Virus record (IMG/VR): IMGVR_UViG_3300037485_000420
Location: 1-29,219 of that record
Source: a virus
Direction: 5' to 3' (one strand)
Length of the DNA stretch: 29,219 nt
The number at the start of each line of letters is the position of its first letter. The first letter of the stretch is position 1. A program made the translations under genes and the position numbers. Shown in pieces: positions 1 through 29,219 of this stretch. The notes under the pieces were generated by a model, which was not told the DNA's origin, made no database searches, and saw only the letters and a list, made by a program, of their open reading frames with translations.

Positions 1-201
1 CACTGGAGTCTCTTCGATTACCTCTACTTCTTCAACAATCTCTTCAACTGTTTCTTCAGCTTCAAAAATATGCTTCAATCCATTCTTATAATACCATTCA
101 TATTGCTTTGGTACTATCTTGTCAATTACTATATTCTGATTCCCTAAAACACTATTATAGATTATAACAGTCTTTCCTTTATACTCATCTTTTATTTTCA
201 T
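1..201 (-). CDS. Small acidic-tailed phage protein (5' part; gene crosses the window junction)
   Basis: This reading frame starts at 201 (ATG, protein begins MKIKDEYKGKTVIIY) and runs off position 1 without a stop. Another in-frame ATG lies at 210. The visible 67 residues have a beta-rich start, an aromatic stretch (QYEWYYKNG) and a Glu/Val-rich tail (EETVEEIVEEVEVIEETPV). If the nine bases shared by both window ends are merged, the frame continues as PKKTRTKKK and stops at 29181, giving 76 residues with an acidic stretch followed by a basic tip. Small proteins of this look stand near head and terminase genes of other Bacteroidota phages (recalled, not searched); a structural or connector role is only a guess. 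It overlaps the upstream gene 185-349 by 17 nt, typical of one operon. Confidence 0.7.
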   Translation of the reverse strand, partial: MKIKDEYKGKTVIIYNSVLGNQNIVIDKIVPKQYEWYYKNGLKHIFEAEETVEEIVEEVEVIEETPV

Positions 202-349
202 TTTTCTCATATTCGTTGGTTATTAAAAACATTAAATAGCTAAAAATAGTAGCAGCTATAAACTTATTTTGGTATTCTTTATCATTCCAAATCATTACAC
301 TCATTCCAATTGCTAAAAGAAATGTGGTTAGTGCTATCCATCTACTCAT
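185..349 (-). CDS. Small two-segment membrane protein (54 aa)
   Basis: The start ATG at 349 lies just upstream of and overlapping the TAG stop of the sigma-like gene (342-344), and the stop TGA is at 185-187. The protein (MSRWIALTTFLLAIGMSVMI...) has a hydrophobic segment at about residues 4-20, a short charged loop (WNDKEYQNK), a second hydrophobic segment at about 30-44 and a charged end (NEYEKNENKR), so a hairpin membrane protein is likely. Function is not recognised. A small holin-like or superinfection role is possible, but the lysis cassette is elsewhere. A bipartite promoter-like element (346-375) sits over its start, so it may be the first gene of the late transcript leading to the terminase. 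Confidence 0.65.
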   Translation of the reverse strand: MSRWIALTTFLLAIGMSVMIWNDKEYQNKFIAATIFSYLMFLITNEYEKNENKR

Positions 350-878
350 AATGGTCTTTATTTAGTTCGTGTTTTAATCGTCTAAGGTCTTGCTTCATTT
401 CCGTTATCATAGCATGAGCAGTAAAAACTGAAATATTAAAATGGTCAGCAATGCTTCTTGTAGTATTATACCCTTTATCGTGAAACGTCTCAAAGAAAAT
501 TAACTTGATTCTATCGTCTAATGTGTTACGATATATTTCAATTACTGACTTCTGCTCCTGGTAGTTTAACTCGAACAGTATTTTATCCTTTATTTCGTCT
601 TCCGCTTCTTCGATTGGAAATTCATTCTCTACACTATTAACAATCTCTTGTTTGCTTTCCGTATCTCTAAATAGTAACTCGCATTTGATAAAATGGAATA
701 GAAAGTCTTTAACGTTTCCGTATTTAAACTTTGATTCGTTTTTTAGGCAGTTCAGATAAGCGTTAGATATTACTGTGTCAGCTTCAATTCGTAGGTTGAT
801 ACGATTTAAAAGATACATTGTATATTTCTTTACATCAATGTAGTGAGTTTGTAGGTATTTATCTAGTGAGTCCTTCAT
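342..878 (-). CDS. Sigma-70/ECF-like RNA polymerase sigma factor (probable)
   Basis: The protein is 178 aa. Residues ~12-75 resemble sigma region 2 (pattern around ADTVISNAYLNCLKN, then GNVKDFLFHFIKCELLFRD, like the 'GN..aWL..IarN...D' stretch of ECF sigmas). Residues ~120-170 resemble region 4, with a helix-turn-helix (TRSIADHFNISVFTAHAMI) followed by a basic helix. Region 2 binds RNA polymerase and the -10 element and region 4 binds the -35 in this family. It is the last gene of the early block, and a promoter-like element covers its 3' end, which suggests control of the switch to late genes. It overlaps the upstream gene by 20 nt. The match is by eye; a non-sigma HTH regulator is the alternative. 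Confidence 0.65.
   Translation of the reverse strand: MKDSLDKYLQTHYIDVKKYTMYLLNRINLRIEADTVISNAYLNCLKNESKFKYGNVKDFLFHFIKCELLFRDTESKQEIVNSVENEFPIEEAEDEIKDKILFELNYQEQKSVIEIYRNTLDDRIKLIFFETFHDKGYNTTRSIADHFNISVFTAHAMITEMKQDLRRLKHELNKDHYE
346..375 (-). promoter_or_regulatory. Bipartite promoter-like element at the end of the sigma-like gene
   Basis: Minus strand: AAAACACGAA (375-366), 11 nt, CCATTATGA (354-346). The spacing equals that of the elements at 23094-23123 and 27264-27293, although here the bases also code the C-terminus of the sigma-like protein. Transcription from it would enter the small membrane protein gene and run across the junction to the terminase. Confidence 0.5.
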
Positions 879-8108: not shown

Positions 8109-8309
8109 TTATGAATTTAAAATAATTTCTAACTCGTTATGATTCAACTCAACTATGTATATATTCTTGTCGAATTCATCTATAAATATACGCTGATTAC
8201 CATTGTATACTGTGCCTATATAAGTGTAGTGACCTGTAAGGTAAACTATTCTTCCGTTCTGCTCTAAAGTTGGTAATGATTGAAGAAATACTCCTGATAC
8301 GTTTTTCAT
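8109..8309 (-). CDS. First gene of the early block, hypothetical
   Basis: The protein is 66 aa (MKNVSGVFLQSLPTLEQNGR...), beta-rich with alternating hydrophobic and polar residues (IVYLTGHYTYIGTVYNG; IFIDEFDKNIYIVEL), suggesting a small beta barrel such as an SH3-like or Tudor-like fold. Function unknown. It stands directly behind the best promoter in the window (8339-8370), so it is probably among the first proteins made after infection; such genes often act on the host. Confidence 0.55.
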   Translation of the reverse strand: MKNVSGVFLQSLPTLEQNGRIVYLTGHYTYIGTVYNGNQRIFIDEFDKNIYIVELNHNELEIILNS

Positions 8310-8338: not shown

Positions 8339-8370
8339 CAAATCTAAGTACTTTGTTTATAACTACCAAA
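8339..8370 (-). promoter_or_regulatory. Early promoter, Bacteroidota type
   Basis: Minus strand: -33 TTTG at 8370-8367, 20-nt spacer, -7 TAGATTTG at 8346-8339. This matches the known Bacteroidota consensus TTTG-N19-21-TAnnTTTG fully. Transcription would start near 8333, about 24 nt before the ATG at 8309, and run through the early block to the sigma-like gene. One ATATGCAAA sequence (8334-8342, plus strand) overlaps the -7 box and could be an operator. Confidence 0.65.
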
Positions 8371-9516: not shown

Positions 9517-10017
9517 TTAAATGTTTGGATAAAGTATCTTACCTTGTGTAATTACTTTTCCTTTGGTAACTAAAGGTAAAAGCGTTCTCCAGGTATGACC
9601 GAAAGTCTTTTCGAAATGTGGTGCATCTTTAAAGGATTTCCAATCACCTCCCCAAACCCAACCTTTTGATTTGAAGTAATTAACTACTTCAGTCCATTCA
9701 GGTGTTTTGTCTTTATCAATATCCTTTGTTAAGGACCAGGACGCTTCTTCAAATGTACCGTTTCCATCGTTATCGTATAGCAAAACTATATCGAAAGCTA
9801 AACCGTAATTATGAATTGACTGCCATTTATCCGCATTAGTTACTTTAGGTCTTTTCAAAAACAAAGCGTGTTGTTCTTCAGCAGTTCTAAGTACATAAGC
9901 AAATCTAAGTCTGCAATTTTTAGGAAGCATTGAATTGATTTCGAGGTATTGCTCACGAAGTTCCTGGCGAATCTTTGGATGTGCAAACTCTATTCTTTCT
10001 AAGGTTATTTTATCCAT
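9517..10017 (-). CDS. Endolysin, peptidase M15 (VanY/L-Ala-D-Glu or D-Ala peptidase type)
   Basis: The protein is 166 aa. The zinc site of M15 peptidases is clear: SIHNYGLAFD (67-76, His69 and Asp76 of SxHxxGxAxD) and DAPHFE (131-136, His134). R44 in the YVLRTAEEQ segment matches the conserved substrate-binding stretch. Residues 82-91 (DNDGNGTFEE) look like a calcium loop. There is no signal peptide, so it must leave through a holin. It cuts the peptide part of peptidoglycan at lysis. The holin and spanin-like genes lie directly upstream, and its 75-nt leader is made of 33-bp tandem repeats. Confidence 0.88.
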   Translation of the reverse strand: MDKITLERIEFAHPKIRQELREQYLEINSMLPKNCRLRFAYVLRTAEEQHALFLKRPKVTNADKWQSIHNYGLAFDIVLLYDNDGNGTFEEASWSLTKDIDKDKTPEWTEVVNYFKSKGWVWGGDWKSFKDAPHFEKTFGHTWRTLLPLVTKGKVITQGKILYPNI

Positions 10018-10020
10018 CTA

Positions 10021-10094
10021 TTTACACTTAATTGTTTACTGTCAACATATCTCTTTACATTTAGTTGTTTAGTGTCAACATATTTCTTTACATT
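10021..10094 (-). repeat. 33-bp tandem repeats in the endolysin leader
   Basis: Copies at 10021-10053 and 10054-10086 match at 29 of 33 positions, with a third partial copy (TTTACATT) from 10087. They fill the whole gap between the spanin-like and endolysin genes. On the minus strand each holds AATGTAAAGA-ATATG-TTGACA; the ATG TTG ACA begins a six-codon frame ending in TAA (MLTLNN and MLTVNN). Confidence 0.75.
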
Positions 10095-13142: not shown

Positions 13143-13154
13143 ATATTATAATGG
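13140..13154 (-). promoter_or_regulatory. CCATTATAAnnTATG element
   Basis: Minus-strand CCATTATAATATATG ends in the start codon of the gene at 12786-13142. It lies 23 nt behind a terminator, where a new promoter is needed. CAAATCAAAA stands upstream as in two other copies, with a slightly longer spacer. See findings. Confidence 0.55.
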
Positions 13155-13176
13155 TGTTTAATTTTGATTTGTTATA

Positions 13177-13230: not shown

Positions 13231-13737
13231 TTATAATAAACCAGCAATAATAGTAGGGTCAACTTCATATGCTAAATTTTCCGCTTCCGAGACGATGGTA
13301 ATACTGTACTTTGAGCCATCAGCTTTGGCAGTTCCCGAGCCTTCAGCAACCGCAGTTACTTGTGAATTCGGGAAATACCAATATTTACCATTTGCATCTA
13401 AAACGATAATAGCTAAGTCTCTTTGTCCTTCTCCTAATATTTTGATTGAACGAGATTTTGCAGCTTCACGTCTATGGAACATTAAAGTAATCGTTGCAGT
13501 TACGAATGAAGAGCCATTAATCAAATCATTCGCTTGGTCTTCAACGTAGTTTCCCGTATTACGCTTAAATTCAAAAGGAATGAAAGGGTCACCCGCAGTA
13601 ATTGCAGTTACCTCCCAAGCAGCATCGTCAACTGTTACCGAAGTAACTTCGCTTTGGTCATTTATGTAGACCGTTTGGATGCCTCCGATGTTGTTGTCGC
13701 ATCCTTTTGTGATTGTAGTTATTGTATTACAAGCCAT
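13231..13737 (-). CDS. Major tail tube protein (probable)
   Basis: The protein is 168 aa and beta-rich. It starts MACNTITTITKGCDNNIGGI, a beginning I recall from tail tube proteins of Bacteroidota siphophages. The body alternates strands (EVTSVTVDDAAWEVTAI; TATITLMFHRREAAKSRSIK; RDLAIIVLDANGKYWYFPNS) and ends AEGSGTAKADGSKYSITI..., typical of the tube fold. It is framed by two terminators (13177-13209 and 13751-13784), like a highly expressed structural gene with its own transcript, and sits next to the capsid gene. A head decoration protein is the alternative. Confidence 0.6.
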   Translation of the reverse strand: MACNTITTITKGCDNNIGGIQTVYINDQSEVTSVTVDDAAWEVTAITAGDPFIPFEFKRNTGNYVEDQANDLINGSSFVTATITLMFHRREAAKSRSIKILGEGQRDLAIIVLDANGKYWYFPNSQVTAVAEGSGTAKADGSKYSITIVSEAENLAYEVDPTIIAGLL

Positions 13738-13750
13738 TTTTTTATATATT

Positions 13751-13784
13751 AAAAAAGGGATGATGTTTGTTGCACCACCCCTTT
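13751..13784 (-). terminator. Terminator after the major capsid gene
   Basis: Minus strand: AAAGGGGTGGTG-caacaaa-CATCATCCCTTT followed by TTT. The stem is 12 bp with two G-U pairs. It lies between the capsid stop (13803) and the tail tube start (13737). Confidence 0.8.
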
Positions 13785-13802
13785 CTAGTTAGTAATTAAT
13801 TC

Positions 13803-15676: not shown

Positions 15677-15688
15677 ACATTATAATGG
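15674..15688 (-). promoter_or_regulatory. CCATTATAAnnTATG element
   Basis: Minus-strand CCATTATAATGTATG ends in the start codon of the protease gene. It lies in the 60-nt divergent gap shared with the plus-strand gene at 15737. The upstream half of the longer element is poorly conserved here. Confidence 0.55.
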
Positions 15689-15715
15689 AGTAAGTTTTTT
15701 TTTGTTATATTTTTG

Positions 15716-15723
15716 TATATTTG
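15716..15723 (+). promoter_or_regulatory. -7-like box for the plus-strand gene pair
   Basis: Plus-strand TATATTTG fits TAnnTTTG and lies 13 nt before ATG 15737, so a leader would be only about 7-8 nt. A TTTG is at 15701-15704 but too close (11 nt). This is the only room for a promoter of the two plus-strand genes. Confidence 0.4.
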
Positions 15724-15736
15724 CTAAAAAAACGCT

Positions 15737-16294
15737 ATGGTAAAAATCGGAACAACAAAGATTAACAACGAAGTAACTGAGTTAACAATTGAGCAATTTG
15801 AAAAACTTAGTGCAACAATGAATAATTTAGAACTTGACCAATTCGAAAAATGGGCTAAGATATTTATTGACTTGGGAGCATCGGAAGATGAAGTTTACGA
15901 TTTGGATTTTGAAAAGTTTACGGAGATTGTAAAGGAGTTTTGTGATACTAAGAAAAAGCCTACAAAAAAGTTTCTTAAATCAATTGAATTCGATGGTTAT
16001 ACTTACCAAGCCTATGAAGACGAGTTTAAATTGAATGTTCGTGATTTGAAAATGATTGAAAAAGCAGTTTCTACTTCTCCCGAAAATTATATTTCTAGAG
16101 TTATGGCTATTATATTTAAAAGAACAGACCTAACTAAAGCGGAGCATTACGGAGATTCACACATTGCATTAAAATCAAAACTATTTAAGGAGCAAAAAGC
16201 AAACATTGCTATTCCTTTCATTGCTTACATCGGACAAAAGTTAGGTAAAACCGCTAAAGATATTCAAGTTGAAGCTACCGAAATCGTGGAATGA
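15737..16294 (+). CDS. Tail-assembly-chaperone-like protein, first of a paralogous pair
   Basis: The protein is 185 aa, one of two genes on the plus strand. It is acidic and helical: ELTIEQFEKLSATMNNLELD, then a YDLDFEKFTEIVKEF segment, KKKPTKKFLKSIEFDGYTYQ, a middle part with LNVRDLKMIEKAV and an end ATEIVE. The next gene repeats the same order of motifs, so the two are paralogues. Tail-assembly chaperones (lambda gpG/gpGT) are typically small acidic helical proteins made from two overlapping frames; that and the location among structural genes are why I suggest it. The frames overlap over 16269-16294. Evidence is indirect. Confidence 0.5.
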   Translation: MVKIGTTKINNEVTELTIEQFEKLSATMNNLELDQFEKWAKIFIDLGASEDEVYDLDFEKFTEIVKEFCDTKKKPTKKFLKSIEFDGYTYQAYEDEFKLNVRDLKMIEKAVSTSPENYISRVMAIIFKRTDLTKAEHYGDSHIALKSKLFKEQKANIAIPFIAYIGQKLGKTAKDIQVEATEIVE

Positions 16295-17006
16295 TATAAC
16301 AGTCGAACAATTTATAGAGTTAAGGTCTTTGAATAATGAAGACTTTGACTCTTTATTTAGCTATGAAATAGAATGCTTATCTATTTTAACGGATGTTGAC
16401 GTTGACGAATTCGATGACATGGATATAGATGAACTTTCAAAGGTCATTAAGCAAGTTACTTTTATAAAAAAGCAGCCTACAAATATCTATAAGAATGAAG
16501 TAAACAATTTTGTTTACATTGGTTTAAACGATTTAAAGCTAGGTGAGTTTATAGATTTGGAATACTATTTTGCAAATGATTATGTTAAACATCTAACTTA
16601 CATTTGTTCAGTTTTGTATCGTAAAACTAAACTAAGCGAATGGGAAGAAGTTGTTTATGAAGATTATTCGTTTAATATTGAAAAGCGCAAAGAACAGTTT
16701 AACGAGTTACCAATTACTTCAGTCTACGGAATATGCTCGGAATATATTAAGTATCGTGAGAACTTCTTAAAAGTTTATGAAAATCTATTTAACCCAATCT
16801 TTGATGAAGACGAACTAGACGATGCAGAACTTGATGAAGAAGATTTAAAAGAGCAAGAAGCAGAAGACAAAATAAACCGATGGAGTTGGGAACATACGCT
16901 CTACAATTTAGCCAACGAAGATGTAACTAAAATAAAAGACGTACTAGAACTTAATCTAGTATTCGCCTTTAATATTTTAGGAATGAAAAAAGAGTTAGAA
17001 ATCTAA
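16269..17006 (+). CDS. Second protein of the plus-strand paralogous pair (chaperone-like)
   Basis: The protein is 245 aa if it starts at TTG 16269 (KLPKSWNDITVEQFIELRSL). There is no ATG near; the frame is open up to 16245, and it is +1 relative to the first gene. Matching parts are ITVEQFIELRSL / LTIEQFEKLSAT, FDDMDIDELSKVIKQV / YDLDFEKFTEIVKEF, and YICSVLYRKTKLSEWE / RVMAIIFKRTDLTKAE. It adds a longer acidic C-terminus (FDEDELDDAELDEEDLKEQE, 190-210). It may be made by TTG initiation coupled to the upstream stop, or as a fusion by frameshift in 16245-16294. Its 3' end overlaps the convergent connector-like gene by 12 nt. Confidence 0.5.
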   Translation: MKLPKSWNDITVEQFIELRSLNNEDFDSLFSYEIECLSILTDVDVDEFDDMDIDELSKVIKQVTFIKKQPTNIYKNEVNNFVYIGLNDLKLGEFIDLEYYFANDYVKHLTYICSVLYRKTKLSEWEEVVYEDYSFNIEKRKEQFNELPITSVYGICSEYIKYRENFLKVYENLFNPIFDEDELDDAELDEEDLKEQEAEDKINRWSWEHTLYNLANEDVTKIKDVLELNLVFAFNILGMKKELEI

Positions 17007-17486: not shown

Positions 17487-17786
17487 TCATGGTTTAGATT
17501 TAATCATTTCGACAAATGTATCAAAAATTCCCTTTTGTTTTTCAGTCATTTCAATATAATCAAGTTCAGTAAATGATTTAGGTACACTATTTTCGATTGT
17601 GTAGAATTTCATTATTCTAGCAATTGGATCAGAAATATTAACCGTTAACAATTCTTGTGTATCTGAAAATTCATTTATAAAGAAATCATACTCTGAGGTC
17701 AAAGGATAAATTTCTTTTGTGTTTTCTAATTCATTATAAGCATAAATATCTAAGCCTATAATATCTATTTTAGTTACATTCTCCAT
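17487..17786 (-). CDS. Hypothetical protein after the tail fibre
   Basis: The protein is 99 aa and acidic (MENVTKIDIIGLDIYAYNEL...), beta-rich at the start and helical at the end (EMTEKQKGIFDTFVEMIKSK). Its ATG overlaps the fibre stop (TAATG), so it is translated with it. A small gene coupled behind a fibre gene is often a fibre-assembly chaperone; nothing else supports this. A 57-nt gap follows before the connector-like gene, with no clear signal other than TATATAATAG. Confidence 0.5.
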   Translation of the reverse strand: MENVTKIDIIGLDIYAYNELENTKEIYPLTSEYDFFINEFSDTQELLTVNISDPIARIMKFYTIENSVPKSFTELDYIEMTEKQKGIFDTFVEMIKSKP

Positions 17787-23090: not shown

Positions 23091-23123
23091 ACTTTATAAT
23101 GGTAATTTTTTGATTTGTGTTTT
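23088..23123 (-). promoter_or_regulatory. Bipartite promoter-like element before the tape measure gene
   Basis: Minus strand: AAAACACAAA (23123-23114), 11 nt, CCATTATAA (23102-23094), then AGTATG with the start codon. It differs at one position of the left half from the copy at 27264-27293 and has the same spacing. It fills most of the 41-nt gap after the tail gene at 23132. Confidence 0.6.
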
Positions 23124-27260: not shown

Positions 27261-27293
27261 ATCTTATAATGGTTAAATTTTCATTCGTGTTTT
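27258..27293 (-). promoter_or_regulatory. Bipartite promoter-like element before the first tail gene
   Basis: Minus strand: AAAACACGAA (27293-27284) starting at the terminase stop, 11 nt, CCATTATAA (27272-27264), then GATATG with the start codon. The same arrangement and spacing occur at 346-375 and 23094-23123. Confidence 0.6.
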
Positions 27294-28443
27294 AGAAGCT
27301 AAAGTATGAATCATCGGTATAGTAATTGTCCTTAATGAATCTTCCCGCATATTGAATCGCATCCATAGCATCGTCAAATAGTTTGATTGGCTCGTCAGTT
27401 ATTGAGTCTCCTACTTTCTTCCATTTGTAATTCTCATACTCACGTTTTAAGTTAGGATTGTCCAAGCAGTAAACCCCGAAAGTTTTCACGTTGTCAATTC
27501 CTTTCTTGACTCCCTTCGTTGCATTGTTTATATTGTACCCAGCAATTTGAATCTCTGCTATTATTTCGGGTCTTGAATGGTCGCCTAAGATATCAGCATT
27601 TTTGTCTATGCCTAATTCATTCATGCGCTCGATTAACATCGTGGTGGTCAAGTAGCTTTCATAGATAACCGATTCAACAAAGATGTCCTTCTCATTCCAA
27701 TACACTTTCATTAATGCAGTAGGGTGATTGTACCCAAAATCCAAACCGTAGCAGAACGATTCAAATCTTGAAGGTCTCTCTTTCACGAACTGCCAATTCG
27801 AATAAATGTTTGTTTTGCTTATAGTCTTTTCACCTAAAGCATAGATTTGGTATAGTGCCTCATCCGTTCTTTTCAAATCCTCAATTTGTCGCTTGATTGA
27901 TTCGGGTAAGAATGGATTGTCCTTATATGTTGATTTGATTAATACACTTTCATCTTCGGGAAGTTCGTAAAGCCAGGAGGAACTATCGGAAGGATTGTAA
28001 TCGAATATCATTGTGCTTTCAGTTCTCATGTTCAGCTGCTGAAAGTCTTCAAACCAAAGTTCATTCGCTTCATTACACCAACCGATATCTCTTTTTCTTC
28101 CTCTAATCTTCTGCTCGTCATCTACACTAAAGAATTCAACGATTGAGCCATTACCAAACCTATAAATGTTTTCACTCTTATTGTGATTTGCTACGTCATA
28201 GATTCCTAAGTCCTTCATGATTTCAAAAAAGTCACGCATGACTGTTGCCCGTAAAGCTGGGAAAGTTTTACGAACTATACTCACTACCTTGTTCGGATTT
28301 TGTAGGCAATAGACAATTATAACCTGACAAAGCGAATAGGTTTTACTTGAACGTGAGCCACCTTGATTAACTATGAATCTAATATTCGAATCAGAAAGCG
28401 CAGTAAAGTTCTGCTCAAAGATTTTAGTTGCTTTGATTTCCAC
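27292..28443 (-). CDS. terL: Terminase large subunit
   Basis: The protein is 383 aa, starting at GTG 28443. Walker A is GGSRSSKT (28-35), Walker B with catalytic Glu is in DIGWCNEANE (119-128), and the coupling motif region is FDYNPS (147-152). The RNase H-like nuclease domain shows D235 (GLDFG), D288 (ILGDHS) and DDAMDA (357-362). This is a PBSX-family type terminase motor that cuts and pumps DNA into the head. It overlaps the small subunit by 20 nt. The length is a little short for the family (about 420), but all motifs are present. Confidence 0.9.
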   Translation of the reverse strand: MEIKATKIFEQNFTALSDSNIRFIVNQGGSRSSKTYSLCQVIIVYCLQNPNKVVSIVRKTFPALRATVMRDFFEIMKDLGIYDVANHNKSENIYRFGNGSIVEFFSVDDEQKIRGRKRDIGWCNEANELWFEDFQQLNMRTESTMIFDYNPSDSSSWLYELPEDESVLIKSTYKDNPFLPESIKRQIEDLKRTDEALYQIYALGEKTISKTNIYSNWQFVKERPSRFESFCYGLDFGYNHPTALMKVYWNEKDIFVESVIYESYLTTTMLIERMNELGIDKNADILGDHSRPEIIAEIQIAGYNINNATKGVKKGIDNVKTFGVYCLDNPNLKREYENYKWKKVGDSITDEPIKLFDDAMDAIQYAGRFIKDNYYTDDSYFSF

Positions 28444-28842: not shown

Positions 28843-28852
28843 TTCGTGTTTT
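28843..28852 (-). repeat. AAAACACGAA motif copy before TerS
   Basis: Exact minus-strand copy occupying the whole gap between the stop of the gene at 28854 and the TerS start. It takes the place where a ribosome-binding site would be. Confidence 0.6.
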
Positions 28853-29180: not shown

Positions 29181-29219
29181 TCACTTCTTTTTAGTTCGTG
29201 TTTTTTTAGGCACTGGAGT
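29181..29219 (-). CDS. 3' end of the junction-crossing small gene
   Basis: Read on the minus strand from 29219, the frame gives TPVPKKTRTKKK and a TGA stop at 29183-29181. The first three residues repeat the last three of the frame that leaves position 1, because the nine bases are the same at both ends. This fits one 76-residue protein cut by the choice of window ends. A copy of the AAAACACGAA motif (29195-29204) lies inside this C-terminal coding part. Confidence 0.65.
   Translation of the reverse strand, partial: TPVPKKTRTKKK
29195..29204 (-). repeat. AAAACACGAA motif copy at the junction
   Basis: Exact minus-strand copy inside the C-terminal codons of the junction-crossing gene, six bases from the 9-nt terminal repeat. 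The next bases (CTAAA) are the same as in the copy at 366-375. Confidence 0.5.
29211..29219. repeat. 9-nt sequence shared by both window ends
   Basis: CACTGGAGT stands at 1-9 and at 29211-29219. It has internal two-fold symmetry (ACT-GG-AGT). Either an assembly overlap of a circle or the cohesive end of a cos phage. Confidence 0.7.

Follow-up and report, generated by a model that had tools for sequence, protein, structure and literature searches.

A divergent ECF-type sigma factor as the probable late-gene regulator of uncultured Bacteroidota phages

Results

Genome setting and gene order

We analysed IMG/VR record IMGVR_UViG_3300037485_000420 as one window of 29,219 nt. The window closes as a circle through a 9-bp terminal repeat (CACTGGAGT, at 1-9 and 29211-29219), its end junction is colinear with a relative (L006), and it is the circular genome of a Bacteroidota siphophage. 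The terminase relatives and the promoter type suggest that the host, too, would belong to the Bacteroidota.

Nearly all of the gene order discussed here runs leftward on the minus strand (Table 1). The early part, from 8309 to 878, carries recombination and replication genes: an Erf-like annealing protein, an exonuclease, a helicase-like protein and NinG. Its final large gene, a reading frame for 178 aa, stands ahead of the packaging genes and is the subject of this work. Beyond it the order crosses the genome junction into small genes, the small and large terminase subunits and tail genes, and further on come the tape measure, head genes, portal and lysis. The neighbours on either side of this gene, at 185-349 and 1044-1292, encode small proteins, possibly membrane proteins, and the first of these, the 54-aa gene, is probably read from the early transcript.

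Several other features accompany this order. Two 33-bp direct repeats, 88% alike and containing TTGACA, lie at 10016-10081, immediately before the point where the endolysin gene starts (10017). An inverted repeat, GC-rich and with a T run behind it, lies between the capsid gene and a 168-aa gene (13738-13802); it is present in most relatives with no late promoter downstream, and it looks like a terminator or attenuator. Two overlapping genes at 15737-17006 (+) are oriented opposite to all others, and wherever a relative was found to have an orthologue of the first, that orthologue runs against the late genes. A host-type TATATTTG box at 15716 precedes the pair, which may possibly be read by host sigma.

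Table 1. Genes and predicted promoters referred to in the text, in window coordinates
Feature	Position	Strand	Description
54-aa gene (MSRWIALT...)	185..349	-	ATG within late promoter 1; overlaps the sigma stop
Sigma factor gene, 178 aa	342..878	-	Domain 2, about residues 1-71; linker, 72-92; domain 4, about 93-177
Late promoter 1 (predicted)	346..374	-	AAACACGAA-N11-CCATTATGA; in the sigma gene 3' end; would serve the packaging block (terminase genes)
Host-type promoter (predicted)	8339..8370	-	TTTG...TAGATTTG; upstream of the early block (gene 8109-8309)
Late promoter 5 (predicted)	13146..13174	-	TAACAAATC-N11-CCATTATAA; 3-nt gap to the ATG of the 118-aa gene, which precedes the portal gene
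Late promoter 4 (predicted)	15680..15708	-	CCATTATAA with AAC 18 nt upstream; 3-nt gap to the ATG of the 317-aa head gene, which precedes the capsid gene
Late promoter 3 (predicted)	23094..23122	-	AAACACAAA-N11-CCATTATAA; 3-nt gap to the ATG of the tape-measure gene
Late promoter 2 (predicted)	27264..27292	-	AAACACGAA-N11-CCATTATAA; 3-nt gap to the ATG of the 469-aa gene
Terminase large subunit gene	27292..28443	-	Query for finding relatives

Predicted host-type promoters of the early genes

TAnnTTTG is the -7 box of Flavobacterium sigma-A, and in F. psychrophilum the primary sigma box lies at -12 to -5 (PMC9723704). Boxes of the form TATATTTG stand before early genes near 1314, 4278, 6513 and 8505. 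Single TAnnTTTG matches are common, and only the promoter at 8370, which is intergenic and paired, is persuasive. A scan of the window for the E. coli sigma-70 consensus found no excess (12 versus 10.1 expected).

A predicted two-domain sigma factor at the end of the early block

The NCBIfam profile TIGR02937 (sigma70-ECF) aligns to residues 4-167 of the product, over nearly the whole profile, with an E-value of 2.3e-5 and 24.1 bits, below the curated cut-off of 42.9. A Pfam scan of the protein gave no Sigma70_r2 or Sigma70_r4 match. The sole Pfam match above cut-off was the Mga helix-turn-helix (PF05043, residues 110-175, 22.3 bits against a gathering threshold of 21.1), a match that covers the sigma4-like helix-turn-helix only and leaves domain 2 unexplained. 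Distant homologues weakly match PHROG 351, 1190 and 1740, which are phage RNA polymerase sigma factors (E 1.2e-5 to 0.016, the former value for homologue L098 against PHROG 351), whereas the PHROG scan of the window protein listed no sigma family.

The AlphaFold model used here was built from 19 diverse family sequences (pLDDT 79.6) and replaced an earlier model from near-identical sequences, which had a pLDDT of 65.9 and weak PDB matches. Helices 2-71 form one domain and helices 93-177 a second, with a low-confidence linker between them, which is the layout of ECF-type sigma factors (domains 2 and 4 only, joined by a linker). The best 50 Foldseek matches in the PDB are all sigma factors or mimics of sigma domains such as PhyR, the top one at E 2.8e-3. 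Domain 2 matches SigR region 2 (Z 8.3, 65 residues, 2.2 Å), and domain 4 matches both sigma-H region 4 (Z 9.0, 75 residues, 2.2 Å) and sigma-E region 4 on -35 DNA (Z 7.8), Z values that, taken alone, are middling for helical proteins. Superposition of each domain on SigR region 2 and on sigma-H and sigma-E region 4 gives 2.2-2.6 Å. TM-scores over the full length are low (about 0.3), as the model leaves it uncertain how the two domains are placed against each other (pTM 0.41).

The first-pass annotation had seen regions resembling sigma 2 and 4 in a gene that ends the early block, and had proposed structure prediction as the check. The predicted fold has both domains, the TIGR02937 match points the same way, and the gene is indeed the last large one before packaging. 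Family profile, fold list and genomic position thus agree, and the case for a sigma identity stands on that agreement: judged by sequence and model, the product is a divergent two-domain (sigma2 + sigma4) ECF-type sigma factor, and would have sigma activity. Within domain 2, the loop at residues 47-57, between the second and third helices, has only 18% identity across lineages, against 44 and 32% in the flanking helices. We take the position of this loop to be that of the -10 reading loop of ECF sigmas.

Conservation in an uncultured phage group

The sigma gene has 25 near relatives at 90-99% identity. A terminase search gave 568 matching contig stretches, from which 80 were kept, and the 63 with at least 3.5 kb upstream were tested for a sigma homologue. 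All 63 have one, 0.7-1.9 kb before terL. PF08281 matches in two relatives (G006 and G014) fall in other genes and below cut-off, and were discarded. No match was obtained by tblastn with three members of the sigma family in 50,697 phage records, and therefore no cultured phage with this sigma was found there. Searching genome contigs for a host or prophage, with sigma and terminase as queries, also returned none.

A bipartite element at the head of late blocks

CCATTATRA occurs 6 times in the window versus 0.72 expected, a number that 0 of 100 shuffles reach. Five of the six copies, all on the minus strand (354, 13154, 15688, 23102 and 27272), have an AAC block 18-19 nt upstream. The composite AACA-N15-CCATTATRA is seen 4 times against 0.005 expected, and AAACAC-N14-CCATTATRA, common to three copies, is absent in 200 shuffles. 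The copies at 346-374 and 27272 have an identical 9-nt AAACACGAA block and an identical 11-nt gap. The sixth copy, CCATTATAA at 17783 (+), lacks the AAC block; it is probably there by chance, and we do not count it as a promoter. Four of the five bipartite sites lie exactly 3 nt ahead of the ATG of their block's first gene, the early block of the window has no such site apart from the copy in the sigma gene 3' end, and the host TAnnTTTG -7 box is absent at all five. Immediately upstream of late promoter 5 is a terminator-like hairpin (13209-13186). In a collection-wide scan, the element matched within the same phage group, together with scattered single matches.

The AAACACGAA block alone is also enriched in the window (7 versus 0.6 expected). 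We rejected it as a signal by itself, because it also falls within coding sequence and precedes other starts that have no -10 block. Two such starts have it 2-3 nt upstream (2547-2555 and 28843-28851, both minus strand).

The copy over the 3' end of the sigma gene, which had already been noticed in the first pass, is real, and is encoded by sigma codons 168-178 (LKHELNKDHYE). Across 22 distinct clade sequences, codons 168-171 (the -35 block) and 175-178 (the -10 block) show zero synonymous change. By comparison, 108 of 139 amino-acid-invariant degenerate codons do change synonymously, as does codon 172 in the gap. If the average invariance of 22% per codon is taken, invariance of the four codons of the -35 block has a chance probability of about 0.002; the codons of the -10 block are under the further constraint that the next gene's start ATG overlaps them. 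Lineages B (G008) and C (G006 and G011) likewise have a copy here, and none was found at the sigma gene 3' end in lineages D, E, F and H.

The -10 box changes by lineage while the -35 block is kept

We located orthologues of p118, p317, the tape measure and p469 in 14 genomes and read the DNA upstream of them. The typical -10 box is CCATTATAA in the window clade, CTATTATAA in G008, ACAATATAG in G006 and G011, ACATTATA in G002 and G005, GCAATATAA or GCAACATA in G013 and G014, TAATATAGT in G016, and TACCAAGTT or TACAATTA in G015 and G001. Outside the window clade these cores were picked by eye in those same upstream regions, which makes the site counts per genome descriptive; the permutation test worked on the raw upstream sequence and used no cores, and the AAC distance is also less affected by the choice. 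Box similarity is 0.66 for the same clade at different loci, 0.51 for different clades at the same locus, and 0.50 for different clades at different loci. When each lineage is represented by a single genome, boxes within a genome have a similarity of 0.663; permuting genomes within each locus gives 0.549 (sd 0.014), and 0 of 2000 permutations reach the observed value. The sites change together across unrelated loci, and therefore behave as sites of one trans-acting reader.

The late sites also have an ECF-type -35 AAC at a fixed distance from the -10. Across lineages its distance to the -10 core has a sharp peak at 19 nt, and AAC is found at 18-20 nt for 27 of 37 ATG-proximal cores (seven lineages) versus 1 of 21 other cores. 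In the relative G008, a bipartite site at 13294 (-) lies in the early region with no start codon after it.

We read the -10 variation as the signature of a co-evolving trans-acting reader, whose specificity would be that of the sigma factor. The phage lineages may differ in host, and a host factor could in principle drive the -10 changes. Alternatively, the sites might be promoters for a host sigma, primary or ECF, with the phage protein an activator, an anti-sigma or another sigma-like regulator. The low sequence similarity of the protein to known sigmas fits such a role, as do the similar folds of sigma mimics such as PhyR, and ECF sigmas number seven in a host such as F. psychrophilum (PMC9723704). 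We nevertheless think this very improbable: the sites lack the TAnnTTTG box, the reported host ECF motif has CGT at -10 (PMC9723704), the -10 boxes track phage lineages, and the phage protein has both DNA-reading domains and a gene that always adjoins packaging genes. Less probable still, in our view, is a sigma factor with other target sites and elements that belong to an unlinked regulator. The tie between protein and sites is drawn from co-variation, which could reflect another co-inherited phage protein, but ECF sigmas read sites of just this two-block geometry with a -35 AAC, the window yielded no other recognisable sigma-like protein, and one site lies within the sigma gene itself.

Placement of the start codon

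Across lineages, the distance from AAC to ATG is 29-34 nt at 44 of 52 gene-linked sites, and 30 or 31 nt at 33 of them. ECF promoters such as those of sigma-E and sigma-W start transcription about 31-33 nt from the first A of AAC. With AAC some 30-31 nt before the start codon, most late mRNAs should therefore begin at or near the AUG. Such near-leaderless late mRNAs, predicted here from promoter spacing, would be unusual for Bacteroidota: leaderless mRNAs make up 5.5% in F. psychrophilum (PMC9723704), and of the transcripts predicted in F. johnsoniae, 87% carry a leader longer than 10 nt (PMC6847099).

The proximity to start codons could also mean that the element is no promoter at all, but a translation-start signal, an upstream enhancer in a phylum without Shine-Dalgarno sequences, with the sigma-like protein acting elsewhere. 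This would suit the 3-nt spacing of the four window copies and the enriched AAACACGAA before other starts, and Flavobacterium does use a Kozak-like A-rich upstream sequence (PMC6847099). Against it, AAC has its sharp peak at 19 nt from the core whereas core and ATG are anywhere from 5 to 24 nt apart across lineages, which favours a promoter. The sites head late blocks, the next start codon falls within the copy in the sigma gene, and the -10 varies by phage lineage although ribosomes hardly change. We regard a translation signal as very unlikely, if the least unlikely of the three alternatives considered here.

Discussion

It is very likely, in our judgement, that the gene at 342-878 encodes an ECF-type phage late sigma factor that directs host core polymerase to the five AAC/CCATTATRA late promoters. 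From what was computed, namely the fold and family match, conservation, the bipartite element, its co-variation between genomes and the absence of sites from the window early block, we infer binding to core, promoter recognition, timing and transcription start positions as follows. Host RNA polymerase with the host primary sigma would read the early genes from TTTG/TAnnTTTG promoters. The phage sigma, encoded last in the early block, would accumulate and bind host core polymerase; its domain 4 would read the -35 AAC, and its domain 2 the -10 CCATTATRA 18-19 nt further on. Each of the five late promoters would open a structural or packaging block, the first from within the sigma gene 3' end, and at four of the five sites transcription would start at the AUG or no more than a few nucleotides away.

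This proposal departs from that of the first-pass annotation, in which a sigma reading CCATTATRA was likened to T4 gp55. The recognition gains comparative support, since the element changes with the sigma by lineage, but CCATTATRA is the -10 half only. T4 gp55 is a phage sigma that redirects host polymerase to late promoters with an AT-rich -10; it reads only the -10 TATAAATA and needs gp33 and the sliding clamp. The window sites are instead bipartite, with a -35 block, and the likeness to gp55 gives way to that of a two-domain ECF-type sigma with a predicted domain 4 and a -35 AAC. The sites are moreover coupled to the start codon, a feature that points to leaderless late mRNAs.

The phage protein shares with ECF (group IV) sigma-70 factors, such as E. 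coli sigma-E, M. tuberculosis SigH and SigL and S. coelicolor SigR, the possession of sigma2 and sigma4 only, a similar length, a -35 with AAC, similar block spacing and a near full-length TIGR02937 match. It differs from them in falling below curated cut-offs without a Pfam sigma match, in an AT-rich -10 rather than one of CGT/GTC type, and in its proposed role as a late regulator with no anti-sigma gene recognised adjoining it. The SPO1 cascade of gp28 and gp33-gp34 is a temporal switch by phage sigmas, but its host phylum, promoters and sequences differ, and the window phage has a single sigma. The nearest predicted viral structures, BFVD A0A6J7X487 and A0A8S5MMJ5 (35% and 21% identity), come from uncultured phages, and the latter is annotated as sigma subunit-like. 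Among the best structural matches is also PDB 9n9q_C (E 3.1e-3, Z 8.6), a sigma factor that works in an RNA-guided transcription complex.

In the literature searched on late promoters or sigma factors of Bacteroidota phages we found no matching description, and transcription in these phages has hardly been studied. Our analysis names a proposed late-gene switch for a large group of uncultured phages of about 29 kb, the group of the 568 terminase-matching contig stretches, and its promoters would predict late operons from sequence. The lineages form a natural series of sigmas and promoters, with at least seven -10 variants and one conserved -35, that could be used to work out how two-domain sigmas change -10 specificity. 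Whether the phage sigma sets transcription starts at the AUG throughout this Bacteroidota phage group, giving leaderless late (virion) mRNAs and making promoter and start codon one unit that co-evolves with the sigma, we hold to be an evenly balanced question. Because the predicted promoters sit at the start codon, leaderless late translation in Bacteroidota can be put to a direct test.
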